Position numbers and translations under genes: made by a program. A stretch of DNA of 64,000 bases, taken from NCBI GenBank assembly GCA_012517355.1, contig JAAYVD010000053.1:62001-126000 (forward strand). The letters are read 5' to 3'. Positions 534-59,709 of the stretch are shown piece after piece. This DNA comes from Candidatus Rifleibacteriota bacterium (GTDB lineage Bacteria; Muiribacteriota; Ozemobacteria; Ozemobacterales; Ozemobacteraceae). The notes beneath the pieces were generated by a model. It was not told the origin of the DNA. It worked only from the letters and a program-made list of their open reading frames with translations, and ran no database searches. Every line of letters starts with the position of its first letter. Position 1 is the stretch's first letter.

Positions 534-536
534 CCC

Positions 537-1307
537 ATGCAGACAACCGGCGCGAACATGATGCGGAACCTGGGCACGACCATCCCCGGCCGGTCCGACC
601 GGGCCCGGGGCATGACCATCCCCGAGGTCCTGATCGTGGCGGTGCTGATGGCCTTCATCATCTTCGTGGCCTACAAGATCTTCTTCTCGCAGGCCCGCAT
701 GGTGCAGCAATCGATCGAGTTCATGCAGGTCAACGACAGTTTCCGCAAGATCATCATGTATCTGGGCAACGACATCCGGGAAGCGACGCAGATCATCCTC
801 CCCGTCCCCATCAAGCACGAGGACGCCGGCAAGGTCGACACCGTCCCCGGCGTGGTCCTGCAGGTGCTCAAGCAGGAGATCGACCCCCGCCTCAAACCGA
901 CGGGCGAGATGGGGCAGATCACCCTGCTGCGCGAGATCATCTACGAGCTCGAGAACAACCCCAACCCGAACGCCAAGACGGTTCCCCGCTACCGCCTGAT
1001 CCGCACCGAGTTCCTCACCGACCACACGGGCGAGAAGCAGAAACAGCGACACGAGATCGTCGACAACGTGCGCGAATTCGCCCTGTTCCGCACGATCCGC
1101 AAGCCCCTCAAACCACAGAACCTCGACAGCGCCGGCGACCGGCTGCTGGTGACCATGCCCTCGCACGAGACCGGCACCGGCAACAGCCTGCTCCACCTGC
1201 GCGTGACCCTCGAGCGCACGCGCCAGAACGACATCGGTTCGGTCTACCAGATCTCGATGGCCACCTCGTTCTACAAACGCGGCAAGGAGGTCTTCCGGCA
1301 CCCGTGA
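537..1307 (+). CDS. Minor pseudopilin (GspJ/PilW-like)
   Basis: A 256-residue protein. After a 25-residue basic leader comes RARG, then MTIPEVLIVAVLMAF, a typical prepilin cleavage/methylation signal with Gly at -1 and Glu at +5. The C-terminal domain of about 200 residues is larger than that of the previous gene, as expected for a GspJ/PilW-type subunit. It lies between the GspI-like and GspK-like genes, and its TGA overlaps the GTG start of the next gene at 1304, so the three are translationally coupled. ATG at 537 is used; an ATG pair near 558 is an alternative. Expected role: part of the pseudopilus tip complex. Confidence 0.78.
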   Translation: MQTTGANMMRNLGTTIPGRSDRARGMTIPEVLIVAVLMAFIIFVAYKIFFSQARMVQQSIEFMQVNDSFRKIIMYLGNDIREATQIILPVPIKHEDAGKVDTVPGVVLQVLKQEIDPRLKPTGEMGQITLLREIIYELENNPNPNAKTVPRYRLIRTEFLTDHTGEKQKQRHEIVDNVREFALFRTIRKPLKPQNLDSAGDRLLVTMPSHETGTGNSLLHLRVTLERTRQNDIGSVYQISMATSFYKRGKEVFRHP

Positions 1308-3619: not shown

Positions 3620-3628
3620 CCCCCGGTG

Positions 3629-5908
3629 ATGGACAGCCCGGGTTCCCGCTGGCAAAACGCCTTCCTGTCCGGAGAGACCCTCCTGTCGCTGGTGCTGCTG
3701 ACCGGGTTCCTCCTGTCCTCCAGTTACGGCCTCCTCGACGGCCTGGAGGTGAAGACCCTCGATGCCCGGTTCCGCCACCGCCGCGTCGAACAGATCGAGG
3801 ACAAGGTCGTCCTCCTCTACATCACCGACGAATGTATCGAAAAACTGGGCAGCTGGCCCTGGCCCCGCAGCCTCCACGCCCAGGTGGTCGACAGGCTGGC
3901 AAGCGCCGGGGCGCGCATGGCCGTCTTCGACGTCATCTTCCGCGACCCCGACCGGGCCAACCCACAGGAGGACGAGGCCTTCATCCGGTCTTGTACAAAC
4001 TTTGGCAAAGTGATATTCCCCCTGCTGATCGAGCAGGTGAAGATCCTCGACCCCGACTCGCTGGAACTGCGCACCGAGTACGAGGTGGGGAAGCCGTTCG
4101 ACCGGCTGGCCTCGACCGCCATGGGGCTCGGGTTCATCAACGTCGACTACCAGAACCTCAACCCCGACGGCATCATCCGGCGGCTGCCCCTGGTCATGCG
4201 CGACAACCCCACGGGAGAGGCCCATCCCGGCCTCGACCTGGCCGTGGCCCAGGCCGCCCTCGCCGCCAGCTTCGCCGTCGACGGCGACCGGCTCCGGCTC
4301 GGCGCGGCCGAGGTCCCCCAGGTCGGCATTCCCGGCATCGACCTGCCCTGGAGCCAGGCCCGCCCCCCGTTCACCCGCGCCTTCCTGGTCAACTACCTCG
4401 GGGAGGCCACCTCGGGCTTTTTTCCCACCGCCTTCTATTCCGACCTCGCCCTCGGGGAGATCGATCCCGCCGTCTTCCGCGACAAGATCGTGCTGATCGG
4501 TCCCAGCGCCGTGGGCCTGTCCGACATCAAGCTCACCCCCTACGGGGAGATGCCCGGCGTCCTCATCCACGCCAACGTCGTGCAGAACCTGCTGAAGGGA
4601 AACTTCCTGTACCAGATCACCCCCGCCCTGCAGAACCTGCTGCTGGTCCTGCTCGCCATGCTCACCGCCCTCATCCTGACCGGCCTCTCCCCCCTGCCCG
4701 GGCTCCTGGCCGTGGGGGCCCTGCTGGCCGTCTACAACGGGGCGGCCTTCGCCCTGTTCACCCGCGCCTCGGTCGTCATCGAGATGGTCAACCCCACCCT
4801 CCTGGTGACCGGCCAGTTCCTGGGCGGCCGCTTCTGGCAGATGGTCCGGCACCTGCAGCAGGCCTACCAGTCCCTCAAGGAGCGGAGCGAGGAACTGGAA
4901 CAGTCGAACCTCCGCCTCGACCAGCAGGTGCGCAACCTGTCGAACCTCAACGAGGCCGGCTGCCGGTTCGCCTCCACCCTCGACATGGACCTGCTGGGCC
5001 GCGAGGTCATCGCCACCTTCCGGGACCTGTGGCTGGCCGACGACGCCCTCCTGACCATGGTCGACACCGAGACCGACAGCCTCGCTCCCCTGCAACAGGA
5101 GGGCTTCCCCGGCGAAGAGGCGAAACTCTTCCTGTTCGATCCCGGCGTGGTCCGCCACGTGGCCGCCATGCTGGAGAGCCGCCAGATCATCGCCGACCCG
5201 GGAGGCAAATGGTTCACCAAGTACATCCCGCTGGTCATGGGGCCCAAGATGTGGGGCGGAATCCTCCTGCGCGAGCGGCAGCCCGGACCACGCGAGGAGG
5301 AGACGGGCGATTTCTGGTCGACCCTGTCAGGCCTGGCCTCGACCGCCCTCGAGAACGCCCGCCTGTACAACCTCGCCACGGTCGACGCCCTGACCCGCCT
5401 CTTCGTCCGGCGGTATTTCCAGGTGCAGCTCGACCAGGAGTTCAAACGGGCCCGCCGCTACCACCACCGCCTGGCCCTGTTGATGACCGACATCGACAAG
5501 TTCAAGTCCTTCAACGACACCTTCGGGCACCAGCAGGGCGACCAGGTCCTGCGCGAGGTCGCCGCGGCGGTCAAACGGTCCCTGCGCGAGATCGACATCC
5601 CCGCCCGCTACGGCGGCGAGGAGTTCGGCATCGTCCTGCCCGAGACCGACCTGAACGGAGCCTTGATCGTCGCCGAACGCATCCGTCGGCACGTCGAGCA
5701 GACGATGGTCCCTCGCATCGGCGGGTTGGGCGACCCGCTCCGGGTGACCATCAGCCTCGGCGTGGCCAGTTTCCCCGAAAACCCCGTGACCCGCCCTGAC
5801 GACATGGTCAAACTGGCTGACGAAGCCCTTTACCGGGCCAAGGAGAACGGCCGCAACCGCGTCGAGTTCGCCCCGCCCGCAGAGGAAGAGGAGAAGGCCA
5901 CCGGCTGA
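3629..5908 (+). CDS. CHASE2-GAF-GGDEF diguanylate cyclase
   Basis: A 759-residue membrane receptor. A first membrane helix (about 15-35) is followed by an extracytoplasmic CHASE2 sensor domain (about 40-325), two or three closely spaced helices (about 335-400), a short coiled coil, a GAF-like region (about 430-560) and a C-terminal GGDEF domain. The active-site motif is GGEEF at residues 662-666. An RxxD inhibitory-site motif lies five residues before it, so it should make c-di-GMP and be product-inhibited. It begins 9 bases after the pseudopilin gene, so c-di-GMP signalling is probably coupled to the pseudopilus. Start ATG 3629 is chosen; GTG 3626 is equally possible, and no good ribosome site is visible. 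Confidence 0.9.
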   Translation: MDSPGSRWQNAFLSGETLLSLVLLTGFLLSSSYGLLDGLEVKTLDARFRHRRVEQIEDKVVLLYITDECIEKLGSWPWPRSLHAQVVDRLASAGARMAVFDVIFRDPDRANPQEDEAFIRSCTNFGKVIFPLLIEQVKILDPDSLELRTEYEVGKPFDRLASTAMGLGFINVDYQNLNPDGIIRRLPLVMRDNPTGEAHPGLDLAVAQAALAASFAVDGDRLRLGAAEVPQVGIPGIDLPWSQARPPFTRAFLVNYLGEATSGFFPTAFYSDLALGEIDPAVFRDKIVLIGPSAVGLSDIKLTPYGEMPGVLIHANVVQNLLKGNFLYQITPALQNLLLVLLAMLTALILTGLSPLPGLLAVGALLAVYNGAAFALFTRASVVIEMVNPTLLVTGQFLGGRFWQMVRHLQQAYQSLKERSEELEQSNLRLDQQVRNLSNLNEAGCRFASTLDMDLLGREVIATFRDLWLADDALLTMVDTETDSLAPLQQEGFPGEEAKLFLFDPGVVRHVAAMLESRQIIADPGGKWFTKYIPLVMGPKMWGGILLRERQPGPREEETGDFWSTLSGLASTALENARLYNLATVDALTRLFVRRYFQVQLDQEFKRARRYHHRLALLMTDIDKFKSFNDTFGHQQGDQVLREVAAAVKRSLREIDIPARYGGEEFGIVLPETDLNGALIVAERIRRHVEQTMVPRIGGLGDPLRVTISLGVASFPENPVTRPDDMVKLADEALYRAKENGRNRVEFAPPAEEEEKATG

Positions 5909-6078: not shown

Positions 6079-7299
6079 TCAGCGCGCCTGGTAGGGAACG
6101 CTGGACGCCGCCCCGTTGCCGCCACCCCCGACCGTGAACAGCCAGCCGTGCTGGCAGGTCACCCCGGTGCGCTGGTCACGGAGGTAGATGTCGACAAAGT
6201 GCTGGCCCGCTTTCAGTTTCCCCTTCACGGTCGCCGACAACCGCCGGGTGGCAGGATCGAACCCGAAGGCGAGGGTGCCACCCGTGACCTTGGCGTTGAG
6301 CACGTAACGGGCGGGGCTGTAGTCCTCCAGCCGGGGAAGGGTGCAAGCCACGGTGGCCGGGCTGCCCACCACCTCGCCCGGCCGGGGGTGCCAGTCGGTG
6401 ACCTCGAGGGGCCCCATCCCGACCCGGATCAGGAACTTCTCCCGGGTATCGGTGCGGTAGACGACCTGGCGCTTGACCCGGAACGGATCGAGACCGGGGT
6501 AGCTGGCCCCGCCGTCGACGGTCAGGGCGCCGGCGTAGCCCGCCTGCCGGGCCAGGGTCTCGGTCTCCTCGGTGTAGATGCCGTATGGCCAGGTGAAGAA
6601 CAGGGTCGGCAGGCCGGTCCGCTCCTCGATGATCCGCTTGGGACGGACGATCTCCCGCTCGAAGAAGGCCTGCCGGGCGGCGGGGGCCGTCGGCACTTTC
6701 CAGAGGTTGGCATGGGTCAGGGAGTGGGGCTCGATCGACCAGCCGGCCGAGGCCATCTCCCGCAACTGGCCCCAGGTCATGCCGCCGGCCGAATCGATGA
6801 ACTGGGGATAGACGCAAGCCACCCCGACGAACCCGAATTCCTTCATGATGGGAAAGGCATGGTTGTAGACCGACTTGTACCCGTCGTCGAAGGTGAGCAG
6901 GATGGGTTTCTTCAGCGGCTGGTAGCGGCCGGCCAGGTATTCGAGCAGCTGGCGCGAGTTGATCGCCTCGAACCCCTGCGCCTTCAGGATCCCCATCTGC
7001 TCGCGGAACTCGTCCACCGACAGCTCGAACAGGCCGGTGGCCTTGGGCAGGACCTGGTGATAGCAGAGGGCGGCGATGCCACCCGCCAGCCCCGGGAGGG
7101 CGGAAGCCAGCAGCAACAGGCCGCACAGGACCAGGCGGCAGGCATGCGCCACCGCCCGTTGTCCTTGGCCGGAGCGGGCCGGGCCCGAGGGCTGAGGGGC
7201 GGAGGGCTGAGGGGCGGAGGGCTGAGGGGCGGGGGCCCGTCTGGGGGTGGCCGGGGGAGCGGGTCGGTTCCTTTGTGCAGCAGGTGCCATGCGTGGCAT
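6079..7299 (-). CDS. Membrane-anchored polysaccharide deacetylase (NodB family, CE4)
   Basis: About 406 residues. The NodB homology domain shows motif 1 TFDDG (136-140), motif 2 HSLTH (192-196) and the later WPYG motif, i.e. the metal-binding Asp/His/His set of CE4 enzymes that remove N- or O-acetyl groups from polysaccharide. A single hydrophobic segment (about 54-73) precedes it and would anchor the domain outside the membrane. The cytoplasmic N-terminal tail is Pro/Ala-rich, with three SAPQP-type repeats (15-bp units near 7190-7240). A C-terminal beta-rich region of about 120 residues follows the enzyme domain. ATG 7299 has AAGGAG only 2 bases upstream; ATG 7290 has it at 11 bases, so the start is uncertain by 3 codons. 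It is convergent with the cyclase gene. Confidence 0.82.
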   Translation of the reverse strand: MPRMAPAAQRNRPAPPATPRRAPAPQPSAPQPSAPQPSGPARSGQGQRAVAHACRLVLCGLLLLASALPGLAGGIAALCYHQVLPKATGLFELSVDEFREQMGILKAQGFEAINSRQLLEYLAGRYQPLKKPILLTFDDGYKSVYNHAFPIMKEFGFVGVACVYPQFIDSAGGMTWGQLREMASAGWSIEPHSLTHANLWKVPTAPAARQAFFEREIVRPKRIIEERTGLPTLFFTWPYGIYTEETETLARQAGYAGALTVDGGASYPGLDPFRVKRQVVYRTDTREKFLIRVGMGPLEVTDWHPRPGEVVGSPATVACTLPRLEDYSPARYVLNAKVTGGTLAFGFDPATRRLSATVKGKLKAGQHFVDIYLRDQRTGVTCQHGWLFTVGGGGNGAASSVPYQAR

Positions 7300-7337
7300 G
7301 TCTCCTTGGGTCGGTTCGTCAGACAAATGGTCCACCC

Positions 7338-7767: not shown

Positions 7768-7799
7768 GAAAAAAAATGACCGCCGGGTTTCCGGCGGTC
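7768..7799 (-). terminator. Rho-independent terminator after hfq
   Basis: Read on the minus strand, a perfect 9-bp stem (GACCGCCGG with its complement, 7778-7799, 4-base loop) is followed by A and then eight U (7769-7776). It ends the hfq transcript about 370 bases after the hfq stop codon. A long U tail like this is also what Hfq-binding small RNAs carry. Confidence 0.85.
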
Positions 7800-7802
7800 G
7801 AA

Positions 7803-7886
7803 TCAAGGAAAGGAATGATTGAAGACAACTGACGAACAGATCGTGCAGTGCTCATCCTCATAAAAGCAAGGGTTGTGCCAGGTCAT
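7803..7886 (-). CDS. Possible 27-residue Cys-containing small protein, or the 3' part of a small RNA
   Basis: An open frame of 27 codons starts at ATG 7886 and stops 4 bases before the terminator stem. The peptide has three Cys (positions 7, 14, 17) in a CFYED...CTIC arrangement. No convincing ribosome site precedes it. The stretch 7800-7960 is visibly richer in A/T than its surroundings, which suggests a selected element rather than spacer. A 3'-UTR-derived small RNA sharing the hfq terminator is an equally good reading. The rest of 7887-8169 holds no gene that I can support. Confidence 0.25.
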   Translation of the reverse strand: MTWHNPCFYEDEHCTICSSVVFNHSFP

Positions 7887-8169
7887 TCGGGGCGTGGATT
7901 GCGCAAATTCTGGGCAATCATGGCTCTGGGGGCCGAAAGGTGAAAGAAAATTCAACACCGGACCCCGGCCGTGCGCACAAACTGGGCAGCCTCCCCGGCC
8001 TCCCGCCGCCCGCCCGGAGGGGATGTCGACCTCAGCCCCTTGCCGCCACGGAGGGAGAGGCGCCACTCTCGTGGCGCGCCGCGCCAGGGGGTGAGCGAAA
8101 AGACAACCCCGGGCCTGGGGACGACCCGGGCCCGGGGAAGGGAAGACGAGGTTCGGGAGGAACCGCTGG

Positions 8170-8400
8170 TCACTCCTGCTGGACGGATTTGAGGGAGAAA
8201 TCGTCCGGGAGCTGGATGGTGGAAATGGCGTGCTTGTAGATCAGTTGCTTCTTCCCCTCGGATTCGAGCAGGATGACGAACGTGTCGAAGTCCAGGACGG
8301 TCCCCTGGATCTGGAAACCCTTCATGAGAAAGATCTTGACCGGTTCGCCCTTTCCTTTGAGGACCTGGAGAATGGTGTCCTGGATGTTGATGGCTGGCAT
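8170..8400 (-). CDS. hfq: RNA chaperone Hfq
   Basis: A 76-residue Sm-like protein that forms a ring hexamer and pairs small RNAs with mRNAs. The Sm1 region begins NIQD (Q7 and D8, proximal-face RNA contact) and the Sm2 motif is YKHAIS (55-60), the most diagnostic Hfq sequence. The usual acidic, variable tail is very short. A clear AGGAGG site precedes the ATG. It starts only 13 bases after the stop of the TPR gene, so it is very likely transcribed from the tubulin-like/GTPase gene set upstream. This is unusual, since hfq is commonly beside miaA. Terminator at 7768-7799. Confidence 0.97.
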   Translation of the reverse strand: MPAINIQDTILQVLKGKGEPVKIFLMKGFQIQGTVLDFDTFVILLESEGKKQLIYKHAISTIQLPDDFSLKSVQQE

Positions 8401-8413
8401 GGGTCCCTCCTGT

Positions 8414-11400
8414 CTATCTGTTCTGTTCGTTCTCTGTCTGTCCTTCCCTGGTCGGGGCCGACGCGGGTTCCGGCGGGGGGCCGGCCTCGCTCTCCCGGTG
8501 GAAGGAACATCCCACCTTGCCGTCGGCGCCGAGGGAATAGACTCCCCCTGCCGGGCAGGAGGGGATATTGTAATCCACCAGGAACTTCTTTAGCAACTCG
8601 TCGCGCGGAAGTTCCTGCAGCACGCGCGGGGAAAGGCGCTGGAACATGTCGGTCAGGCGGCGGCATGAGTAGGCGCACCGGTCCCGCGCCAGGCCGGGCA
8701 GCGGGAACAGGCCGGGACCACGATGGACGCTGCATTCCAGCGTGCCCGTGGGGCCATTCACCGTCACCGTGCCGCCGGCCGGGCAGAGCCTGGACAGGTC
8801 CTGCAGCGTGCCGCCGAAGCAGACCCGCCGCAGAACGCACACCCAGTCCTGCCACCGGGGCTGCAGAAGGAACCACAGCGGCTGCAGCTGGGCAGCGCGT
8901 TCCCGCCACCCGGTGGGCACACCGCCGTAGTCGGCTTCGATCAGGATCAGCCCCTCGCGGGCCTTCACCTGGATGGCCGGCGTGAAACCGAATTTCAGCA
9001 GAAGAATCTTGTAGGCGTACAGGTCCCGGGCCAGGGCCTTCATGAAGCCCGGGTTCACCTCCACTCCTGGCACCAGCAGGGAGGCTTCGTGCAAGCCCTC
9101 GTCGTTCCACAGGTAGTGCGACAGGATGGCCCGGAAGGGGGCGAACGGGTTGGGCAGGAAGGGCAGGACCAGGCGGGGCAGCCGCGCCTCCCAGGCGTTC
9201 CAGTTGAAGTACAACCCCATCAGGGCTTCCGCGTCGTAGGGGAAGGTCTTCTCCAGCCGCTGGACGTCGGGAACGGGCGGCGGCTCGGCGGCGAAGCCCA
9301 GGACCAGGTGGTTCCCGAGGTGGAAGGCCCAGATGGGGATCCGGCCGAGGTTGCCGCACAGCCGGCGGCCGCCTTCGACCTCCTCGACGGTGGACGGCGG
9401 GGCGCCGAACAGGCGCAGGTAATACTCCAGGGCGGCGAGGGGGTCACGCTGGCCGAGCTGGGGCATCTGCAGGTCGAACCGGGCCGAGGCGGACGGGGAG
9501 AGGATGTCTTGCACCAGGATGGTCATCGCCAGCTGCTCGAAGCCGGGGAAGGCCACCAGGCGGTTGGCCAGAAACTCGAAGACCACCGGCCCGAAATGGA
9601 TGGCGAAAGCGGCCTCGGTCACCTCGGGCATGGCATCGGGCATGCCCGGCTCGGCCGCGCGGTCCTCCCCGGTTTCGGCGCCGGTCGCGGCGTCTGTCGC
9701 CTCTGCCGCGGGCGTTTCCCCGGCGGCCGCCACCTGAGCGGCTCCGGAGGCCTGATCGAGCTGGTAGAACCCGAACAGGGGCTTGCCCAGATCGAGCTCG
9801 CCGCGTTTGAGCGACTCGCACATGCGGGTGATGCGGATCGCATGCGAATACAGGCCCTCCCCCTGGTAGATCCCGATGAGGGTCAGCAGGATGCTCTTGA
9901 TCTTTTCGGGGTTGACCTGGCGACCGAACAGGCGGTGATACTCCTCGAGGGCCCCGTAATGGGCCTTGAGGGTGATGGCCAGGTAGAGGTCCTGCTCCAG
10001 GTTGTCCTGGCGGGGGTCGACCCGGTGGGCCTGCTTGATGTAATCGAGAGCGGCGTTGAACTTCCCCTGCTCGAGGTAGACCTTCCCGAGATGGACCAGG
10101 ATTTCGCCGACGTCGGGGCTCAGTTGCAGGGCCTTCTGCAGGTAGCGGTGGGCCTCGTCGAGCTTGCCGAGCCGGAAGTGGACCCAGCCGAGGGTGTCGA
10201 TGTAGGAGGCGTTGGAGGGTTCGAGCTTGACCGCCTTGGCGGCCATGGCGAGCGCCTTCTCGGTATCGCGGTCGAGCTCGGACAGCAGGTAGGCGTAGTT
10301 GTTGAGCGTCTCGGGGGCCTCGGGCTTGATCTGCAGGGCCTTGTCATACTGGGCGATGGCCTTGTCATACCGGTGGGTCACGTAGTACAGCGTCCCGAGG
10401 TGATAGTAGGGCTCGTAGACGTCGGGGTTGAGCTCGATGGATTTCAGCAGTTCGGCTTCCGCCTTGTCGAATTGCTGGTTCTTGAAGGCCGCCCACCCAA
10501 GGCTGTCCCGGAAGGAGGCGTTCTCGGGAAGCCGGTCGACCGCGCGCTGGCACAGGCTCTGGGCCAGCTCCCGGTTGAGGCCGTATTCCGCGTAGAGGAA
10601 CCCCAGGTTGTTGAGGGCGTGGGGGTTGTTCGGGAAGAGGGTCAGGATCTTCTTGTAGACCGCCTCCTCGAGCCAGAAGGGCTCGGGCTTCTTCATGCTC
10701 TGGTAACTCTCGTGCAGCCCCATGTAGATGCCCAGCAGGGTGTTCTGCAGCTTGCCGTTGGCGGGCACCAGGGCCGCCGCCTTCTCGAGAGAGCCGATGG
10801 CCAGATACAGGCTGTTTTCCTGGGTTCCCAGCAGCCGGAAGGCCTGTCCGATCACGTAGAAGAAGTGGGGATCGCCGCTGGGCCCCATGGCCAGGGCCTT
10901 TTTCAGATCCTCGAGGGGGTGCATGGGGGAGAAGAATTCGTTGGGCCGGGCCCGCAGCAGGTGGAACAGGATTCCCTTGACCAGGTGGTACTGCGGCATC
11001 CCACCCAGGAGATCCTCGGCTTTCAGGAGGGCATCCTCCAGGTCGTGGTCCTTGACGTTCTTCGGGTCGGGCTCCTTGTCGACGGCCAGCAGCAGACCGC
11101 GCAGCAGCAGGTCGTTGAGCACCGCCTGCTTCGGGGCCTTGGCCGGGTCCTCCACCCGGAGGTGGTCCAGCGCGATCTTCTTCAGGGCGATGGCCCGCGG
11201 CTCATCGGACAGGCGGATCAGGGCCGCCCACCGGAACAGGGCGGCCATCTGCGCCAGACCGTGGTTTTCGTTCTCGGCCAGGTATTTCTTCAACAGCGAC
11301 AGGTTGAAGTCGGGAGCCTTCTCCCGTTCCAGCCGGATCTCCTCCAGCCCGAACAACGGCAGCCCGAAATCGAGATCCGGCGTCTCGGCCCGCGCCGCCC

Positions 11401-11470
11401 CGACGGCCAGCCACCCGAGACAGACCACGAGCAGAAGCACCCACCGCAACCCCTGGAACCGTGCCATCAT
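8414..11470 (-). CDS. Large secreted TPR-repeat protein
   Basis: About 1018 residues. An N-terminal signal peptide (RWVLLLVVCLGWLAVGAARA) is followed by a mostly helical region in which TPR units of 34 residues are evident from about residue 290 to 510 (for example YYHLGTLYYVTHRYDKAIAQ). A Glu/Ala-rich linker (about 610-640) leads to a C-terminal mixed domain of about 250 residues. Near the end are two copies of a CPAGG...C-S-x-H motif separated by about 80 residues, which could be paired Cys structures. It lies 97 bases after the second GTPase gene and 13 before hfq. Expected to be a periplasmic scaffold, perhaps the extracytoplasmic partner of the GTPase/tubulin-like system; that is inference. 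ATG 11470 has GGAGG 5 bases upstream; ATG 11467 is also possible. Confidence 0.75.
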   Translation of the reverse strand: MMARFQGLRWVLLLVVCLGWLAVGAARAETPDLDFGLPLFGLEEIRLEREKAPDFNLSLLKKYLAENENHGLAQMAALFRWAALIRLSDEPRAIALKKIALDHLRVEDPAKAPKQAVLNDLLLRGLLLAVDKEPDPKNVKDHDLEDALLKAEDLLGGMPQYHLVKGILFHLLRARPNEFFSPMHPLEDLKKALAMGPSGDPHFFYVIGQAFRLLGTQENSLYLAIGSLEKAAALVPANGKLQNTLLGIYMGLHESYQSMKKPEPFWLEEAVYKKILTLFPNNPHALNNLGFLYAEYGLNRELAQSLCQRAVDRLPENASFRDSLGWAAFKNQQFDKAEAELLKSIELNPDVYEPYYHLGTLYYVTHRYDKAIAQYDKALQIKPEAPETLNNYAYLLSELDRDTEKALAMAAKAVKLEPSNASYIDTLGWVHFRLGKLDEAHRYLQKALQLSPDVGEILVHLGKVYLEQGKFNAALDYIKQAHRVDPRQDNLEQDLYLAITLKAHYGALEEYHRLFGRQVNPEKIKSILLTLIGIYQGEGLYSHAIRITRMCESLKRGELDLGKPLFGFYQLDQASGAAQVAAAGETPAAEATDAATGAETGEDRAAEPGMPDAMPEVTEAAFAIHFGPVVFEFLANRLVAFPGFEQLAMTILVQDILSPSASARFDLQMPQLGQRDPLAALEYYLRLFGAPPSTVEEVEGGRRLCGNLGRIPIWAFHLGNHLVLGFAAEPPPVPDVQRLEKTFPYDAEALMGLYFNWNAWEARLPRLVLPFLPNPFAPFRAILSHYLWNDEGLHEASLLVPGVEVNPGFMKALARDLYAYKILLLKFGFTPAIQVKAREGLILIEADYGGVPTGWRERAAQLQPLWFLLQPRWQDWVCVLRRVCFGGTLQDLSRLCPAGGTVTVNGPTGTLECSVHRGPGLFPLPGLARDRCAYSCRRLTDMFQRLSPRVLQELPRDELLKKFLVDYNIPSCPAGGVYSLGADGKVGCSFHRESEAGPPPEPASAPTREGQTENEQNR

Positions 11471-11567
11471 GTCTTCCTCCAGACCGGGCCCGGCCGTTCC
11501 CGGCCCGCCCACCACTCGCCTTGCGCCGTCAGGGGGAAGGGTCCTCCCCTCCCGACGGCCCGTGAGA

Positions 11568-13346
11568 TCACTTGTCCCCGCCCGGCGGGGCAACCGACCC
11601 GGCCACGGGACCGACCCGCGACACGTCGGCCGTCCAGTCCCGCACCGGCTCGACCATCCGTCGCCGGATCTCGTCGCCGAACAGGTCGACGATCTTGCGG
11701 ACCGCCGGCTCCAGGGAGCCGCCCTTCCGCTTCAGCCAGAAGGAGGCCTGCAGGTGGCAGACCAGCCACAACAGGATCCCCCCGCCCAAGAACATGCCGG
11801 CCCCCGGCTCGTGCGCCGCCAGCAGCGACACCACGAAATACCGCACCAGCAACAGGATGATGGCCAGGGGCAGGAGATTGAGCAGCAGCCCCTCCCCGCC
11901 CGAGGTCTTCGGCTCGAGCACGAACTCGCTGATCTGGTCCTGGATCGAGACCCGGACCGAGGCGGGCAGTGTCTCCCCGTCCGTCAGCCGGCCCAGCAGC
12001 AGCGAGCCGTCCAGGTCGGCCCGGTCGGCCCGCTCGGCGACCGTCCGGCGGAACCGCCGGAAGTGCTCCTCCAGGACCGGTTGCAGTTCGAGCAGCAGCC
12101 GCTGGGCCATCACGCCCTCCAGGTCGGTGCCCGACCCCGACAGGAACAACTGGAACCGCCCGGCCATGGCATCGACCGCCAGGCTGAGCCGCACGTAGAG
12201 ACCGAACGGCCCGCCCAGCCCTTCGGCGGCCGCCGCCTCGCGCCGGCGGAGGATCTCGGGGGTCAGACCGCGGAAGGCCTTGTCCATCGCCTGCCCGAGA
12301 GCGGCGCGGCAATCGGCCAACTGGCTTTCGGCCCAGGGCAGCAGGTCGGCGGCGAAGGCCCGGGCCTCGGCGAGCCGGCAGACGCCGGCCACGAACGCCT
12401 CCGTCTCGCGGCGCATGGCCGCCACGTTTTCCTCGCTGATCCGCTTCACCAAAGCCTGATCAAGCCGCTCGCGCAAAAACGCCTCGAGGGCGGCGAACTG
12501 GCCGGTGGGGCCGCCGGGGGCTCCCGTCTTCCCCGACAGGGCATTGCGCGCCGAGATGGTGAACAGGGGCAGCTCCTCGCCGGCGGGGGGCTTCAGGCCC
12601 AGCGGGGCCACCTTGGCCAGCAGGTCCTGCCGCACCTTCTCGCTGAAGGGGATGCCCTCGTCGATGCGGTTGAAGACGAAGACCACTCGCCGGAAGCCCA
12701 TTTCCCGGCCCAGGATCTCGTACAGGATGTGGGAATCGTATTTCTGGGTGGTCACCACGCTGAGGGCCAGGTCGGCCCGTTCGAGGACCTGCCGGAACAC
12801 CTCGCGATGGACGGCCTCGATGCCGTCGAGATCGGGGGTATCGACCAGGATGATGCGTTCCAGCGCCTCTTCGTCGTGGACGACGAAGGTGTCGTCTTCG
12901 CGCAGGATGCCGGCCAGGCGGGTGCGGGCCAGGCCTTCGCGGCGGCGATGGACGAAGACGGCCGGCCGCCGGGTGTAGCAGGCCCGGGCCGAGGCCTCGC
13001 CGATCTCGCGGCCGGCCAGGGCGTTGACCAGGGTGGTCTTGCCGACCTTGGTGCCGCCCAGCATCACCACGATCAGGCAGTCGGAGATCGATTTCTCGCG
13101 CTGGCGCAGCAGGCCGAGCCGCCGGGACACCTCGGCCTCGCGCCCGGGCGACGGCCGGCCCCACAGCCGGCGGCACTGGACCACCAGCCGGGCCAGGTCG
13201 GCGGCCAGCGACAGGCCGGGCGGCAGGTCGGGCTCGGAGAAGGCCTCGGCGTCCTCGGGGAAGGGAGGCAGGGCGGGGGGGTCGCCCGGCGCGGGAGCCA
13301 TGACCTGGGCCGGGCCGGCGGTCGCGAGGGCGGGGTCAGAGGACAT
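11568..13346 (-). CDS. Dynamin-like/Era-type membrane GTPase (second of a pair)
   Basis: A 592-residue GTPase with complete signatures: G1 GGTKVGKT (97-104), G3 DTPD (169-172), G4 NRID (226-229) and a later SAR/NA G5-like motif. The C-terminal half is helical and carries two membrane segments (about 490-509 and 518-537) followed by an amphipathic tail, a layout shared with dynamin-like and YfjP-type membrane GTPases. It overlaps the previous GTPase gene by 11 bases and is a clear paralogue of it. Expected role: GTP-dependent remodelling or bridging of the inner membrane with its partners (GTPase pair, VWA, tubulin-like protein). The family is clear; the function is inferred. Confidence 0.82.
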   Translation of the reverse strand: MSSDPALATAGPAQVMAPAPGDPPALPPFPEDAEAFSEPDLPPGLSLAADLARLVVQCRRLWGRPSPGREAEVSRRLGLLRQREKSISDCLIVVMLGGTKVGKTTLVNALAGREIGEASARACYTRRPAVFVHRRREGLARTRLAGILREDDTFVVHDEEALERIILVDTPDLDGIEAVHREVFRQVLERADLALSVVTTQKYDSHILYEILGREMGFRRVVFVFNRIDEGIPFSEKVRQDLLAKVAPLGLKPPAGEELPLFTISARNALSGKTGAPGGPTGQFAALEAFLRERLDQALVKRISEENVAAMRRETEAFVAGVCRLAEARAFAADLLPWAESQLADCRAALGQAMDKAFRGLTPEILRRREAAAAEGLGGPFGLYVRLSLAVDAMAGRFQLFLSGSGTDLEGVMAQRLLLELQPVLEEHFRRFRRTVAERADRADLDGSLLLGRLTDGETLPASVRVSIQDQISEFVLEPKTSGGEGLLLNLLPLAIILLLVRYFVVSLLAAHEPGAGMFLGGGILLWLVCHLQASFWLKRKGGSLEPAVRKIVDLFGDEIRRRMVEPVRDWTADVSRVGPVAGSVAPPGGDK

Positions 13347-15267
13347 CGCCGAACACCTCCTTCCACAGGTCCTGCAGGCGGGTGACCTCGAGGGCGACGT
13401 CCTTGCCGCGGAGGTCGATGGGGGTCAGCAGGCGGCCCACCGGCTGGTAGAGCCAGTCGGCGGCGGTCAGGAAGATGGCGCGCCGGGTCTTGCCGAAATC
13501 CTCGCGGGCCTTCTGGATGAAGGGTTCGTTGGCGAGCGACTCGGACAGCTTCAGCAGGTTCTCGGGCAGCAGGCCCTTCAGGTGCTCGAACACGGGCAGG
13601 GCGAGGCCGCCCAGGATGTACTCGCTGGCCCCGGGCAGGATGGTCAGGGTGTGGATGGACAGGATGGCGGCGGCCAGGCCGGCCAGGGCTGAGAAGCCCG
13701 GAACCACCGCCTTCATCGCGGTGATGAGGGAGGGGTTGTCGTCGCAGAACCGCTCCAGCTCGCTCTCGAACTTGACGATGACGGGAAGCAGCATCCGCTG
13801 GGAGCTTTCCCGGAAATGGGCGTCCAGTCGGCCTCCCAGACTCTCGGGAGTGGGCAGGTCGAGGGCCTTCAGCTCCTGGTGGAACTTCACCCACAACGGG
13901 TGCCCGCTGCCCTCCGCCTTGCCGCGGGCGAACTCCAACAGGTCGAACCGGGCATCCTCGAGAACCTGGCGGGCCTGCCGCAGGTCGGCCTGGTCGCGGC
14001 GATCGACCGGGTCGGGCGTCTCGCCACCCGCCCCCCCCAGCCAGCCGCCGAACGGGAGCTTGCTCAGGGTCCAGGAGAGGGCCTCGCCGGCCGACCGGTT
14101 GATCTGGCTGACCAGGTCGCTGACCGGGGTCTGGATGCGGGGCCCGAGCACCCGCATGATGGCGGCCTGCAGCTCGAAGGGGGCCTCGTGCCCGGGCAGC
14201 CGGCGCAGCGGATCGAACAGGGAGGCCTCGAACCGCTGGTTCATCGAGGCGATCACCCGGCGCCATTCCCGCTGCCGCCGGACCATCGCCTTGGCCGCCT
14301 GGCCCAGCCGGTTCCCGGCCTGCGCCAGGCCATGGCGGATGGCCTGGCCTTTCAGCCGCCGCCGGTCGGCCTGCGCCTCCCGCAGCTTCTCGCGCAGGGG
14401 GTCGAGGTCGGCTGGGGGCAGAAGGCCGTCGGTGATGCCGGTCCGCTCGGCGATGCGGAAGATGGCGCGCTCGTTCTCGGGCCACCGTTCCCCGTAGTCG
14501 CGCATCATGTCCTCGAGGGCCTCGGCATGCCGGGGCAGCGCCTGGTTGAACACGTCGAACCGGCACCGGGCCAGGGCCATCGCCTCGTTCAGGAACTTGA
14601 TGCCCGACTCGTCCTTGTACTTCTGCTGGGTGGTCACCCAGACCACGAAATCGGCCATGGCGAGACCGTAGCGGGTGGCATCGCGGCACCGGGTGTCGGA
14701 ACTGTCGATGTCGGGGGTGTCGAGCAGCACCGGCAGGTCGCCGGGCAGGTCGGCGTGCTCCGGCCGGTAGACGGCGTGCCGGCGGGTGTCGGGGTTCTTC
14801 AGCTCGCTGGCGGGCAGCAGGGCGAAGGCGGGGTGGGCCTGGACCACCTGCCGCAGCCGCTCGGGGGAACCGATCCCGATCAGCCGCTTGGTCTTGCTGG
14901 CGGTGCTGCCCGATTCGGTCACCACCTCCCCGACCAGGCTGTTGACCAGGGTGGACTTGCCGACGTTGGTGCCGCCGCAGAACACCCCGACCACGGGCAG
15001 CTCGAGGTCGGCGCGGGCCTCGGGCAGGAGGCGGTCGCGCAGCAGCAGCAGGCCGAGTTCCAGGCCGGTCAGGTCGAGGTCGGCGAACCGGGCGGGCGCG
15101 CCCTTGGCGGTGGCGATGGCCACCTCGACCCACCGGGCCAGGTCGTCGGCCCGCCCCAGCAGTTCCTCGCGACCGCCGGGCCCGGGGAAGGAGGGAAGCT
15201 CCGCCCCGCGCTCCGGGGCGTCTTCCTCGGCGGCGAAGGCAGGCAGGAGTCCCGGTTGCGGTTTCAT
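13336..15267 (-). CDS. Dynamin-like membrane GTPase with degenerate G4 motif (first of a pair)
   Basis: About 643 residues, from ATG 15267, 14 bases after the VWA gene. G1 is GGTNVGKS (98-105) and G3 is DTPD (183-186), with the same spacing as in the next gene. At the position of NKxD/NRID it reads NQAL (241-244), so the Asp that selects guanine is missing. It may bind nucleotide with altered specificity or act as a regulatory partner. A helical stalk-like region follows, then one or two hydrophobic segments (about 525-550) and a C-terminal helix. The two GTPases probably act as a hetero-pair, as many bacterial dynamin-like proteins do; this is inference. Lower confidence applies only to the exact start. 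Confidence 0.8.
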   Translation of the reverse strand: MKPQPGLLPAFAAEEDAPERGAELPSFPGPGGREELLGRADDLARWVEVAIATAKGAPARFADLDLTGLELGLLLLRDRLLPEARADLELPVVGVFCGGTNVGKSTLVNSLVGEVVTESGSTASKTKRLIGIGSPERLRQVVQAHPAFALLPASELKNPDTRRHAVYRPEHADLPGDLPVLLDTPDIDSSDTRCRDATRYGLAMADFVVWVTTQQKYKDESGIKFLNEAMALARCRFDVFNQALPRHAEALEDMMRDYGERWPENERAIFRIAERTGITDGLLPPADLDPLREKLREAQADRRRLKGQAIRHGLAQAGNRLGQAAKAMVRRQREWRRVIASMNQRFEASLFDPLRRLPGHEAPFELQAAIMRVLGPRIQTPVSDLVSQINRSAGEALSWTLSKLPFGGWLGGAGGETPDPVDRRDQADLRQARQVLEDARFDLLEFARGKAEGSGHPLWVKFHQELKALDLPTPESLGGRLDAHFRESSQRMLLPVIVKFESELERFCDDNPSLITAMKAVVPGFSALAGLAAAILSIHTLTILPGASEYILGGLALPVFEHLKGLLPENLLKLSESLANEPFIQKAREDFGKTRRAIFLTAADWLYQPVGRLLTPIDLRGKDVALEVTRLQDLWKEVFGDVL

Positions 15268-15281
15268 GCGGTTCCCGCCCG

Positions 15282-16316
15282 TCACCGGGCCCGGGTGAGG
15301 GTCGTCGCCCCCGCCCGCAGGGTCAGCTCGATGCTGCCCGGGCGGGCGGCATCGAAGGGGGCGGTCACTTCCGCGACCTGGACATTGTTGACGACGGCCG
15401 CCAGGCGGGCGAACCAGGTGCCCAGGTCGGCGCTGTCGGGAACGTAGGCGAAGAACCCGTCGGTGCCGTCGGCCAGGCGCCGGAGCACGTCGACCTCGAC
15501 CCACCCGAACCCGAGGACGAACAGGGAAACCTCGTGCTGGCGGGCCCGCCGCACCACGTCCTCCAGGCTGGCCCCGCCGACGTTGTCGTTGCCGTCGGTG
15601 GTCAACAGTTCGAACCGCAGCCAGGGCGCCTTCTGCAGGGGCCCCAGGGCGGTGTCGACCGCGGCGTAGAGGGCGGTGCTGCCCTGCGGGTTGTCCTGCC
15701 GGACGGCGGCTTCGAGGACGGCGGGGTCTGAGGTGGGCCCGGCCAGCTTCTGCACGTCGGTCTGAAACTTGTACACCAGGCCGGAATATGGTATCGCCAG
15801 ACCTTTCAGGAAGCTGCCGTAGTGGGTCACCTGGGCCTGCAGGTCCTGGGCGAACATGCTGCCCGACCAGTCCATGACGCAGGCGAAGGTGGCCCGTTCG
15901 GCCCAGGCGGTCATCTGGTGCAGGGGGGTGACCCGCTCGACGGTGGCCGGCTGGCGGGCCGCCGCGCCGTTGCCGAGGGACACGGCGAGGTCGGCGGGGG
16001 TCACCACCACCAGGGGGCCTCCCTGGGCGTCGGTGGCCGAGAACAGGATGGCGAAGCGCTTCTCGCCGGTGCGCACCACGCGGTGGATGCGGAGGGCCTG
16101 GGCCATGTCGTCCACCGGCCTGGCCTGGGCAGGGGCGCGGGCGCCGGCCCGGAGGAAGGGCCGCCAGGTCTCGACGGTGGCGTTGCCGGCGCCCCACTTG
16201 GACCCGAGGGCCCACCACAGCCAGCCCAGCCCGGCCAGGGCCAGGACGGCGAGGAAGACGAGGTAATGCCAGTACCGGATGGAGATGGTTTCGCTGCGTG
16301 GGCTGACTTCAACCAT
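15282..16316 (-). CDS. Membrane-anchored von Willebrand factor A domain protein
   Basis: A 344-residue protein. One N-terminal membrane helix (about 17-37) is followed by an extracytoplasmic VWA domain with an intact metal-ion adhesion site: DWSGS (149-153), Thr214 in GSTALY and Asp241 in TTDGND. It should bind a divalent metal and a partner protein. A beta-rich C-terminal tail of about 50 residues may be a second small domain. It is followed after 14 bases by the first GTPase gene and preceded, across a 438-base spacer, by the tubulin-like gene. VWA proteins are a predicted component of the FtsZ-like family 2 system. No good ribosome site is visible at ATG 16316. Confidence 0.85.
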   Translation of the reverse strand: MVEVSPRSETISIRYWHYLVFLAVLALAGLGWLWWALGSKWGAGNATVETWRPFLRAGARAPAQARPVDDMAQALRIHRVVRTGEKRFAILFSATDAQGGPLVVVTPADLAVSLGNGAAARQPATVERVTPLHQMTAWAERATFACVMDWSGSMFAQDLQAQVTHYGSFLKGLAIPYSGLVYKFQTDVQKLAGPTSDPAVLEAAVRQDNPQGSTALYAAVDTALGPLQKAPWLRFELLTTDGNDNVGGASLEDVVRRARQHEVSLFVLGFGWVEVDVLRRLADGTDGFFAYVPDSADLGTWFARLAAVVNNVQVAEVTAPFDAARPGSIELTLRAGATTLTRAR

Positions 16317-16754
16317 GGCGGAGGGCGGCGAGGGGCCGGTGGGCGATCGGGGTCGGGCCGGAGAGGCCGAGGAGGCCGAAGAGGCCGGAGAAGCCGGAGA
16401 GGCCGGAGAGGCCGGAGAGGCCGGAGAGGTCGGGGATGCGGACCCAGGCGGGAAGAGACGGGAGGCCGGTCACGGGGGTGGACACCCCCAGGGCCCCGGC
16501 CGGCCGCCTGACGGAGCGGTTCCCCGACGGGGTGGGTTTCCCTGGTGGCATGCGGCGCAGCGGCGGGTTGGTCGTTTGCCCCCCTGCCTTTGGAGGGACC
16601 GGACGGGAAACGGTCAGCCGCGGATGGACGCGGATGGACGCGGATGAGGGCGGGTGGGTCTCAGCGTTCATCAGGGGCGATACCAACGGTTCCGGTTTTT
16701 GGTGTGAAGCGGTCATCCCATCGACCAGCCTGAAAGTTCATCGGTGACACGGGA
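16317..16754. other. Spacer between tubulin-like and VWA genes, with simple repeats
   Basis: This 438-base stretch holds no gene I can support. It contains about eight copies of a 9-bp unit (GAGGCCGGA and variants, 16361-16431) and three copies of a 10-bp unit (GCGGATGGAC, 16620-16649). The latter resembles a low-complexity sequence seen between genes of many GC-rich bacteria. No terminator is obvious, so transcription from 19935-19964 could continue through it. Confidence 0.6.
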
Positions 16755-19700
16755 CTAGCCGGCCGTCCCGGAGCCGCCCGCGGTGCCGGCCGGCCGCTGG
16801 CTGAGGATGCGTTCGAACTGTTCGTGCAGGTCGGTCAGGATGCGGAGGATGCCGCGTTTGAGCGAGAGCAGTTCGTCGCTGGCCGGGTTCACCTCGTGGT
16901 TGGCGCGGATCTCCTGCTCGATGGCGTCTTCCAGGGTTCGGACCTTGTCGGCGAACAGGGGCCGGAATTTCTCGATGATGGCGTTCTGCTGGGGCAGGGG
17001 AAGCCCCAGCCAGTATTCCTTGTAGACGGTGTTGATCAGGTAGATGCCCATGGTGTTGTTCTTCAGGTAGTCGAACAGCTCGGGCACGGTCCGGCCGATG
17101 GGCTGGGGCTTGTCCTGCTGGAACAGCAGTTCGAACTGCACCAGTTCGTCGTTGTACTCGATGCCGTGCCGCGTCTTCTCGGGGTCGGCGAACAGCTCGT
17201 AGCGAAGCAGGACATAGACGAGGTAGAGCTGCTCGAGGGTCTTGGCGGGGATCAGTCCGTAGCTCGACCACAGCACCGGGTAGGCGTCGTTGGCCAGCAC
17301 GGCGTGGCAGTTGATGCGGGCGTTGTTCTTGCGGTACAGGCCGTGCCACTGGGTGATCGCACTGAGGTTGTAGGGGCAGATGCCGTGCAGGGTCTGCACC
17401 AGGCTGATGGAGAAGGGGTTGCGGGTGGGAGCGACGGTGACGCCCAGGCCGCCTTTCAGCAGGGTGTCCTTGATCTCGCCGGCCAGCTGGGTGCCTTCGT
17501 CGGCGATGCCCAGGGTGACGATGTTCATGCGGGTGGGGTGGTTGTTGCCGCGGTCATTGATGGTCAGCAGGGGGGCCGACTGGTTCATCATGCTCTCGAT
17601 CAGGCTCTTCTTGAACCCCTTGCGGACCGAGTCCTTCCAGTGGATGAACTCCTCGATGCCGCCGAACATGCGCCGGGCCACCACCTCGCGACAGTAGCTG
17701 ACGATCTCGTTCTCGAGGGAGTCGCTCTCGGGGTTGGTGTAGCCGTCCCAGTTGCGGCCGAGGTTGATCTTGACCAGGAAGGCCCGTTCGACGTCGTTGT
17801 TCGACAGCTCGCCGAGCAGGTACTTGTAGAACGGGTCGATGTCCCGTTCCTCGAAGATGAAGGTGCCGACGAACTTCTGGACGTTGGAGAACGGCTTGAT
17901 GCGGTCGAGACAGGCCTCGTAGGAGCGCTCGATGAACCCGTTCTTGCTGATCGCGTCGAGCTTGCGGGCGAACTCCTCGACCTGCCGCTTGATGTTGGTG
18001 ACCTGCACCCCCAGGAATTTCAGGAAGTCGCTGGTGGCGGCGAGGCAGAACCGCTCGTATTCGAGCTCGACGGCCTCGGCCGCCTTCTTCTCGAGCTTCT
18101 TGTACTCCTCGTGGATGTTGGTCAGCGAGAACAGGGTGCCCAGCTCCAGCAGCTTGCCGCCGAGCCCGAACATCGAGCTGAGGCGGGCCACCAGGGCGTC
18201 TTTCAACGTCGTGAACTCGCGCTGTTCCTTGACCTGGCGGCTCTTGATCTCCTCCTCCTTGCGGAAGGCGACCTCGCGCGGGAACCGGTTCAGGAACTTG
18301 TCGAAGGCGCCCAGGAAATCGATGGCGATGAGGGCTCCCTGGTCGGGGTCGTTGATGATCTCGAGCACCTTCTCCTTCAGGTAGCGGCCCGCCTCGATGG
18401 CGGCCTTCTCGAAGCCCACCTTGACCCGGGCCCGGATCTCGTCCTTCTTCACCTTCACCCGCTCCATCTCGTCGATCTTGCGCAGGATGTAGGCGGTGGC
18501 CGACTCGCCCGGCAGCTGGGCGGCCTCGGTGCGCATGGTGTGGAACTGCGGGTTGTCCCAGTACTGGGCCCGGGGAATGGCCTTGCGGGCCAGGTCGAGC
18601 AGCCCCTCGGGGGTCAGGTCGAGCCGCCCGGGATCGGCCTCGACGAAGGAGCTGACCAGCTGGTCGATGCTGATCTTGCCCGCCGACAGCTTCAGCCAGT
18701 AGGTGAGGTCCATCGACAGCTTGTAGGTGTAGAGGTCGAGGATGACGTCGAGCGGGTAGTGGAAGCTCTTGAACCCCGCCGTGCTGAAGCACTTGAGCTG
18801 CTTCCCCTCGAGGTCGGAGCTGACCTGACCGAGGATCTGCGAAGCGTTGTCGAGCATCGAGTTCTGCGCCTGGCGGAGGTTGGTGGCCAGCTTGGTGAAG
18901 ATCAGCTCGGCGGCGATGCTGTCGTAGGTGGGGATGTCGTCGAGGCCGGTGGTGCCCAGCAGGTAGCACTGGTCGAAGGGGACCTCCTCGGCCACCGCCC
19001 CGAAGGTGGTGGGGTCGTGGCTCTTGCCGAGCGGCCCGAAGTTGACCATGAACTTGTTGCGGCGGTCCTGGGCGAGGATGTCCTTGGCGCTGCGCGAGGG
19101 CGGGAACTTTTCCTTCCCCATGAAGTAGAACAGCTCGACGAGCGAGGCGTAGCCGTTGGCCTCGAGCCGGCCGGTGGCGTTGACGTTGGGGTCGATGGCG
19201 ATCTGGTTGAACGCCTCGGGGGTCAGCTGGATGCCGACCATCACGGGTTTCCCCTTGCCGCCGGACAACTGGTAGTAGGCCATCTTGGCCAGGTAGGCGA
19301 CGTCGAGGAACATGCCCGCGCCGGACCCGCCGCACAGCGAGCCGACCACGTAGAATTCGGGGGTCAGGATCTGGCCCTGCTTGTTCGTCAGGGGCACGAT
19401 CAGGTCGTCCTGGTTGACGTTCTTGCGGGCCATGATCTTGCTGACCTTCGACTTGATCAGCTGGTAGATCTTCTGCAGGTCGACGAACAGCCCGAACCGC
19501 CCGGTGAACCGGAACTGGTGCGCCCCCTGGCTGATCTGCCCGATGTGGTGTTTCAGTTTCACGGGGAACCACTCCTGCAGGTAGGAATACGTGTCGGTAT
19601 CGAGGTTTCCCGTGATCTGGTTGGCGTTCTGGATGTTGATCTGGTGGTATTCCTCCTCGCGGAGGCGCGCCCCTTCGATCTTCTCGGCCTCGCGGGCGTC

Positions 19701-19901
19701 GAACAGGTCGGTGTCGATGCAGAGCAGATCGATGAAATCGGGCAGGGCCGGCTTCTGGTCGACCTGGGCGAACGCGCGCCGGATCTGCGGACTGTTGAGG
19801 AAGGCCTCCTTGAAGTTCATCAGGACCTTCTTGCCGGTGCCGCCCAGACCGATGATCAGGGCGGGGTTCAGCGCGATGCGTTGCTCGAAGTTGATGCTCA
19901 T
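16755..19901 (-). CDS. Tubulin/FtsZ-like GTPase (Tubulin_2 / FtsZ-like family 2)
   Basis: A 1048-residue protein, far longer than FtsZ. The N-terminal domain has a nucleotide-binding start (IGLGGTG, 17-23), CIDTD (61-65) at the place of the second loop, and GSLCGGSGAGMFLD (187-200), equivalent to the tubulin signature GGGTGS that defines the superfamily. A long helical, partly coiled-coil region follows (about 450-650), with mixed domains to the end. There is no signal peptide, so it is cytoplasmic. ATG 19901 is chosen because a strong promoter lies 34 bases upstream; the frame is open further but would run through the promoter. The VWA and GTPase genes downstream match the predicted membrane-remodelling association of this family. 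GTP-driven polymerisation is likely but not shown. Confidence 0.85.
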   Translation of the reverse strand: MSINFEQRIALNPALIIGLGGTGKKVLMNFKEAFLNSPQIRRAFAQVDQKPALPDFIDLLCIDTDLFDAREAEKIEGARLREEEYHQINIQNANQITGNLDTDTYSYLQEWFPVKLKHHIGQISQGAHQFRFTGRFGLFVDLQKIYQLIKSKVSKIMARKNVNQDDLIVPLTNKQGQILTPEFYVVGSLCGGSGAGMFLDVAYLAKMAYYQLSGGKGKPVMVGIQLTPEAFNQIAIDPNVNATGRLEANGYASLVELFYFMGKEKFPPSRSAKDILAQDRRNKFMVNFGPLGKSHDPTTFGAVAEEVPFDQCYLLGTTGLDDIPTYDSIAAELIFTKLATNLRQAQNSMLDNASQILGQVSSDLEGKQLKCFSTAGFKSFHYPLDVILDLYTYKLSMDLTYWLKLSAGKISIDQLVSSFVEADPGRLDLTPEGLLDLARKAIPRAQYWDNPQFHTMRTEAAQLPGESATAYILRKIDEMERVKVKKDEIRARVKVGFEKAAIEAGRYLKEKVLEIINDPDQGALIAIDFLGAFDKFLNRFPREVAFRKEEEIKSRQVKEQREFTTLKDALVARLSSMFGLGGKLLELGTLFSLTNIHEEYKKLEKKAAEAVELEYERFCLAATSDFLKFLGVQVTNIKRQVEEFARKLDAISKNGFIERSYEACLDRIKPFSNVQKFVGTFIFEERDIDPFYKYLLGELSNNDVERAFLVKINLGRNWDGYTNPESDSLENEIVSYCREVVARRMFGGIEEFIHWKDSVRKGFKKSLIESMMNQSAPLLTINDRGNNHPTRMNIVTLGIADEGTQLAGEIKDTLLKGGLGVTVAPTRNPFSISLVQTLHGICPYNLSAITQWHGLYRKNNARINCHAVLANDAYPVLWSSYGLIPAKTLEQLYLVYVLLRYELFADPEKTRHGIEYNDELVQFELLFQQDKPQPIGRTVPELFDYLKNNTMGIYLINTVYKEYWLGLPLPQQNAIIEKFRPLFADKVRTLEDAIEQEIRANHEVNPASDELLSLKRGILRILTDLHEQFERILSQRPAGTAGGSGTAG

Positions 19902-19934
19902 GTCGGCTCCCGGTACCCAGGTTGGATGGAGGAG

Positions 19935-19964
19935 AGTATAGACAGTGGCGGGAATAGGTGTCAA
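19935..19964 (-). promoter_or_regulatory. Strong sigma-70 type promoter of the tubulin-like gene set
   Basis: On the minus strand, a perfect -35 TTGACA (19959-19964) and -10 TATACT (19935-19940) are separated by 18 bases. Transcription would start near 19928, about 27 bases before the ATG at 19901. It is the best consensus promoter in the window. Confidence 0.85.
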
Positions 19965-59394: not shown

Positions 59395-59655
59395 GGGAGA
59401 AGCGGGGGAAGGGGCGAACGGGGCTGCTGGAAACAGCGTCTTCACCGAGCAGGCGGAGGATGGTAAATGGAAGGGAGAGGGCGGGAAAAAGAAGGAAAAG
59501 GGGAACGGGAGAAGCGGGGGAAGGGGCGAACGGGGCTGCTGGAACCAGCGTCTTCACCGGGCAGGCGGAGGATAGTAAATGGAAGGGAGAGGGCGGGAAA
59601 AAGAAGGAAAAGGGGAACGGGAGAAGCGGGGGAAGGGGCGAACGGGGGCTGCCGG
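59395..59655 (+). repeat. 112-bp tandem repeat upstream of the arginine deiminase gene
   Basis: Units begin at 59395, 59507 and 59619 (exact 112-bp period; the third is partial). Each is a purine-rich run plus a short GCTGCTGGAA.CAGCGTCTTCACC core. The preceding 59300-59394 is a GAA/AGG-rich simple sequence. The whole 535-base gap otherwise holds only the promoter at 59676. Confidence 0.92.
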
Positions 59656-59675
59656 GGATGGGCACCCGCCTGTGG

Positions 59676-59681: not shown

Positions 59682-59709
59682 GATGAAAGCGTCTGTGCGA
59701 GGTGATGGT

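Follow-up and report, generated by a model that had tools for sequence, protein, structure and literature searches.

The window analysed here, a stretch of 64,000 nucleotides (69% GC) from a 7.1-Mb metagenome-assembled genome of Candidatus Riflebacteria (Ozemobacteraceae), carries on its minus strand, in this order, genes for a tubulin-like protein (TUB), a vWA protein (VWA), two GTPases, A and B (here DLP-A and DLP-B, for dynamin-like protein), a TPR protein (TPR) and hfq. The first four form a supported unit, FtsZl1–vWA–DLP-A–DLP-B, in which a member of the FtsZl1 family stands beside a bacterial dynamin-like pair; TPR and hfq are at most co-transcribed neighbours of the unit and are not specific to the system. 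A preliminary description of the window had listed these six genes and an 11-base overlap between the GTPase genes, and all are present at the positions that it gave. Judged by TUB, the closest named relatives are Candidatus Riflebacteria/Ozemobacteraceae, with Ca. Ozemobacter sibiricus at the top (92% TUB identity).

TUB (16755–19901, minus strand) is a 1048-residue protein that matches PF13809 (Tubulin_2) with an E-value of 4.6e-52 and 178 bits against a cut-off of 27. The genome contains one copy, and a canonical FtsZ is encoded elsewhere. An N-terminal tubulin-like domain is followed by a long helical region (residues 486–668) and then by a C-terminal α/β plus helical region. Both glycine-rich loops are conserved, and in the signature GSLCGGSGAGMFLD at residues 187–200 Ser188, Gly191, Gly192, Gly194, Gly196 and Asp200 do not vary among the 25 homologues aligned. 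In Foldseek the best PDB match of the AlphaFold model (pLDDT 77) is TubZ with a probability of 1.00, with tubulins further down; the E-value is just 0.007, diluted by the helical half of the protein. The modelled structure supports a tubulin fold without clinching it alone. A sequence search of the PDB with TUB returned coiled coils only, and NCBIfam has no specific name for TUB or for either DLP.

TUB is FtsZl1, the vWA-associated family of Makarova & Koonin (2010; PMC2875224), and not FtsZl2. According to these authors FtsZl1 is widespread and associated with vWA, whereas FtsZl2 lacks gene partners; FtsZl2 is defined by no gene associations, no coiled coil and an α/β C-terminal region of ∼300 residues (PMC2875224). 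The vWA and DLP neighbours of TUB and its long helical region at 486–668 do not agree with that definition. A 2023 study equates the FtsZ-like sequences of Makarova and Koonin with PF13809 (PMC9871819). The preliminary description had recognized the system, a tubulin-like protein with a vWA partner, and had named the lack of a tubulin match as grounds for giving it up; the profile search that it proposed gave the strong match above. Its label 'family 2' has to be dropped, as it is FtsZl1 that has the vWA, GTPase and OmpA partners (PMC2875224); the misnomer is probably traceable to the Pfam name. In the 20 Ozemobacteraceae genomes that have it TUB is 60–92% identical, against 36–48% for VWA and the DLPs outside the nearest genera, and this unusual conservation fits the expectation for a multi-contact scaffold. 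Among open papers (subscription papers lay outside the search) we found no title or abstract reporting experiments on FtsZl1, in line with the earlier statement that the system has little experimental description. The original description of FtsZl1 does not mention dynamin (PMC2875224). Besides the canonical FtsZ, a 458-residue frame of the same genome (G000:C136:17754-18011) gives a weak second match to the tubulin family PF00091 (E-value 7e-9).

VWA (15282–16316, minus strand) is a 344-residue protein with one N-terminal transmembrane segment and a vWA domain (PF00092, E-value 1e-7) that contains DxSxS and TTDG. Its metal site is intact, as had been described: Asp149, Ser151, Ser153 and Asp241 are invariant in 11 orthologues. 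TUB and VWA lie 438 bp apart, and a 135-codon open reading frame within this gap had no match in a Pfam search. The end of VWA is joined to the start of DLP-A by a GTGA overlap, and DLP-A and DLP-B have 11 bases in common (13336–13346); together these overlaps suggest translational coupling of the three genes.

The two GTPases are a bacterial dynamin-like pair, as judged from the predicted structure of DLP-B and the sequence of DLP-A. The classification is by structure and not by Pfam, which yields just a generic GTPase and a marginal match to Dynamin_N, of 29.2 bits for DLP-B (whole protein, cut-off 27, no single stretch passing) and 24.4 bits, under the cut-off, for DLP-A. DLP-B (592 residues; 11568–13346, minus strand) has the G1 motif GGTKVGKTT, the G3 motif DTPDLD and a canonical G4 motif, FNRID. 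The structure prediction that the preliminary description had called for gave a dynamin-like fold for DLP-B (pLDDT 82.8): the best Foldseek match is BDLP (E-value 4.9e-10), followed by IniA, the Campylobacter pair Cj-DLP1/2 and mitofusins, and the model shows helices of a stalk and, at residues 483–542, a hairpin of hydrophobic helices, the site of the membrane tip in DLPs (hydrophobic tip of DLP-B, 481–536). DLP-A (649 residues; 13336–15285, minus strand) gives an MMR_HSR1 match and has G1 GGTNVGKST, G3 DTPDID, a degenerate G4 (FNQALPRH) and a hydrophobic segment at 520–553; its homology to DLP-B is confined to the G domain (profile match, 99.8%). Most bacterial DLPs are encoded side by side as operon pairs (PMC6104087), and the pairing of the GTPases is therefore expected and not new, as the preliminary description had held it to be; the pair itself stands, and it is the placement of a DLP pair beside FtsZl1 that seems new.

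At G4 every DLP-A orthologue reads FNQ instead of NKxD, with the Asp lost, and DLP-B keeps FN[RK]ID. The same is seen in DLP-type pairs of other phyla (L195, L196, L197, L209, L212 and others), where the G4 Asp is usually missing from the first member and usually present in the second; the exceptions are the pairs of g4 and g8 and one other. We found no description of this asymmetry in the portions of the papers that were searched, and for bacterial dynamin pairs as a whole it raises a question that biochemistry can address directly. We rejected the idea that the pairs of g4, g8 and g11 are the DLP pair moved to another place: they are 15–18% identical to DLP-B, compared with 20–23% for the pairs of most other phyla, and being further away they look like a different subfamily.

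The components were mapped in all 40 genomes of the phylum returned by our searches, 24 of them Ozemobacteraceae. TUB is found in 20 of the 24. VWA orthologues occur in 16 genomes, every one of which has TUB, and VWA always lies just downstream of it (with two genes between them in one genome). Nine genomes have a DLP-A orthologue, which directly follows VWA in all eight that also have TUB, and g6 keeps exactly four genes as a unit: TUB–VWA–DLP-A–DLP-B. The gene row recurs across genera and is not an adjacency of one genome only, the outcome that the preliminary description had held against itself. Neither DLP has a match at 69 other FtsZl1 loci (flanks of up to 10 kb a side), which come mostly from cyanobacteria, plus melainabacteria, planctomycetes, chloroflexota and bacteroidota, and a Pfam search of ten flanking proteins from five FtsZl1 loci of other phyla showed a kinase and Hsp70 and no GTPase. 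Of 30 FtsZl1 genomes searched whole, three (two planctomycetes and one anaerolinean) clearly encode a protein or pair like DLP-B, in each case outside the fetched FtsZl1 locus. Conversely, PF13809 is absent from 13 of the 14 non-Ozemobacteraceae genomes that carry a related DLP protein or pair. On these counts the FtsZl1–DLP operon looks specific to part of the Ozemobacteraceae in the data examined.

The unit is preceded by a σ70-type promoter, TTGACA-N18-TATACT (19935–19964, minus strand; 11 of 12 positions matching). The region contains two promoter-like sites where shuffled sequences give an expectation of 0.6. The TTGACA/TATACT hexamers stand 30–43 nt upstream of the TUB ATG in ten of 17 aligned loci, and the TATACT −10 element, read by eye, is kept in about 15 of the 17. 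Because the hexamers recur upstream of TUB in aligned relatives, the promoter is beyond chance; it is real and conserved across genera. At the other end of the gene row, a sequence scan found an intrinsic terminator-like element at 7778–7799 (minus strand), a 9-bp stem-loop followed by a T-run. The strong promoter and the terminator of the preliminary description are thus both borne out.

We propose that FtsZl1–vWA–DLP-A–DLP-B is an apparatus for remodelling the inner membrane in which a filament former of the tubulin superfamily is coupled to a heterotypic dynamin pair, a reading on which our own judgement is evenly poised. It starts from what the sequences and the model show: the gene identities, the intact and lost motifs, the dynamin-like architecture of the DLP-B model, the conserved order and the promoter. 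TUB would bind GTP via its GGTG and GGSGAG loops and assemble into a scaffold on the cytoplasmic side of the inner membrane, where its long helical region probably serves as an arm for docking or spacing. DLP-A and DLP-B would form a hetero-oligomer, the hydrophobic stalk tips of which enter the membrane; DLP-B would act as a GTP-driven switch, and DLP-A, with the guanine-specifying Asp lost, may have a structural or regulatory part or an altered specificity. The membrane-anchored VWA could link the assembly to a ligand or an envelope partner through its metal site. The outcome would be local membrane tethering, constriction or stabilization at a site defined by the filament, as for Streptomyces FtsZ with DynA and DynB. 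Polymerization, the hetero-oligomer, the contact between the modules and the site and process served are what we infer here. A more specific version, in which the FtsZl1 filament directly recruits the asymmetric DLP pair and shapes a membrane, internal or of the envelope, in a process independent of division by FtsZ, is tentative and in our view rather doubtful; if true, the recruited DLP pair would be the first concrete membrane effector for FtsZl1. For the widespread FtsZl1 family, being genetically tied to a dynamin pair would make the 'predicted membrane remodelling' testable with a named effector.

The locus resembles the published FtsZl1/vWA operons (PMC2875224) in its PF13809 protein of about 1000 residues with an N-terminal tubulin-like domain and a long helical region, in a vWA partner with an intact metal site and in the presence of a canonical FtsZ in the genome. 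It differs in the GTPase partner, which here is a membrane DLP pair and there, in bacteria, a single, typically non-membrane TxKD GTPase, and in the lack of an OmpA-like or protein kinase gene, a partner that is frequent there, although not universal; none of the proteins of the operon matched OmpA or Pkinase in Pfam. The DLP pair shares with Cj-DLP1/2, IniA/IniC and LeoA/LeoBC two adjacent large GTPases, stalk helices, a hydrophobic tip and the structural match of DLP-B; unlike those pairs, it is linked to a tubulin-superfamily gene and has a DLP-A without the G4 Asp. In Streptomyces, FtsZ rings are stabilized by DynA and DynB, the latter with two transmembrane segments (PMC8748795). There too a dynamin pair acts with a tubulin-superfamily filament, a cooperation that would apply here by inference; the Streptomyces filament, however, is ordinary FtsZ, whereas here it would be FtsZl1, with FtsZ encoded elsewhere.

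Several observations weigh against such an apparatus. The best Foldseek E-value for TUB (0.007) is modest, and the authors who described FtsZl1 could not recognize in it the T6-H7-T7 elements that ordinary filaments require (PMC2875224). Within the family g4, g8, g10 and g11 have TUB without orthologous DLP genes, and g10 and g11 also lack VWA; since TUB persists in this way, the DLP pair would be an add-on effector and not part of the core. The near absence of PF13809 from the DLP-carrying genomes outside the family counts in the same direction. Finally, synteny in the family runs past the operon into a polysaccharide deacetylase gene and convergent GGDEF and pilin genes, so that adjacency inside the family is weak evidence alone and it is the separations seen in g6 and g5 that define the modules. 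FtsZl1–vWA might do one job and the DLP pair an independent one in membrane repair or surveillance, the promoter being merely common to them in some genera. The genomes that retain TUB without DLP genes, the other-phylum DLP pairs unlinked to FtsZl1 and g7, in which the DLP pair is present and TUB was not found (the genome is 64% complete), would suit such a juxtaposition. We nevertheless consider it unlikely, given that DLP-A directly follows VWA in eight of eight genomes with TUB, despite DLP-A identities down to 36–48%, and that the four genes stay together in g6 although TPR–hfq is elsewhere. An anti-phage or conflict system, with the DLP pair comparable to LeoA/LeoBC and TUB–vWA as a sensing scaffold, seems improbable to us. 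DLP-B matches the PADLOC profiles of LeoA (E-value 5.4e-10) and LeoBC (9e-5). The matches to these profiles cover the G domain only, with 37 bits for LeoA and 13.9–19.7 bits for LeoBC; full-length matches to LeoA plus LeoBC, as in the Leo (Eleos) defence system, were not found, nor was any further PADLOC-type partner. DynA of B. subtilis is reported to shield populations from phage (PMC8844932). The near-vertical presence in the family, the 60–92% identity of TUB, its single copy, fixed position and housekeeping neighbours all speak against a role in defence. Defence systems are typically patchy islands.

It is very improbable that all six genes form one system, in which the secreted TPR protein would be the envelope partner of TUB–vWA and the GTPase pair, and Hfq a post-transcriptional regulator. 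In g1 and g2 all six genes follow one another on the same strand, closely spaced from VWA onward, and in 16 of 20 genomes TUB adjoins the TPR block. TPR and hfq, however, are adjacent in nearly all Ozemobacteraceae, including the g5 genomes that have no TUB, lie on a different contig from TUB–VWA–DLP-A–DLP-B in g6 and are also adjacent in families f3 and f7 of the phylum; deeper relatives have miaA–hfq, the arrangement of families f2, f4 and f5, some of which also have TPR genes close by. The conserved order also reaches the unrelated pilin and GGDEF genes equally. TPR–hfq is an older pair, most likely derived from the classical hfq locus, which is miaA–hfq in other families of the phylum; here miaA is absent and the TPR gene lies directly upstream of hfq. 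As an older, separate pair it leaves two proposals of the preliminary description unsupported, namely TPR as a periplasmic stand-in for the OmpA-like partner and the linkage to Hfq as a feature of the system. The case shows that a contiguous operon can misassign neighbours to a system. The preferred reading, an FtsZl1–vWA–DLP-A–DLP-B apparatus, is accordingly confined to four genes.

TPR (8414–11467, minus strand) is a 1017-residue protein that matches TPR families in Pfam. It carries a signal peptide and, close to its C-terminal end, two repeats of CPxxG-x(n)-CxxH that may bind metal; these motifs are kept in most TPR proteins of the family and are absent from the f3 and f7 homologues. The hfq gene (8170–8400, minus strand; 76 residues) matches PF17209 with an E-value of 3.9e-24; the YKHAIST motif is present and the Sm fold profile is matched. 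An 87-residue open reading frame at 7803–8066 was rejected as Hfq, being in the wrong frame. Besides this short Hfq, this genome (elsewhere, at G000:C96:141433-141609) and, at equivalent positions, most others of the family encode a second one that is much extended, in open frames of roughly 107–284 residues.

An Rfam search of the window returned zero matches and a search of a viral fold library no significant match. After hfq lies a polysaccharide deacetylase gene (6079–7335, minus strand), the position of which is kept in most genera, and beyond it a convergent cluster (60–5908, plus strand) of two pilin-like genes and the genes for a CHASE2-GGDEF protein and for a 771-residue protein that matches nothing in Pfam; this cluster is syntenic across the family. 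Protein-arginine deiminases (PF03068) are best known from animals; a 572-residue protein encoded at 59467–61185 (plus strand) contains such a domain (E-value 3e-26).

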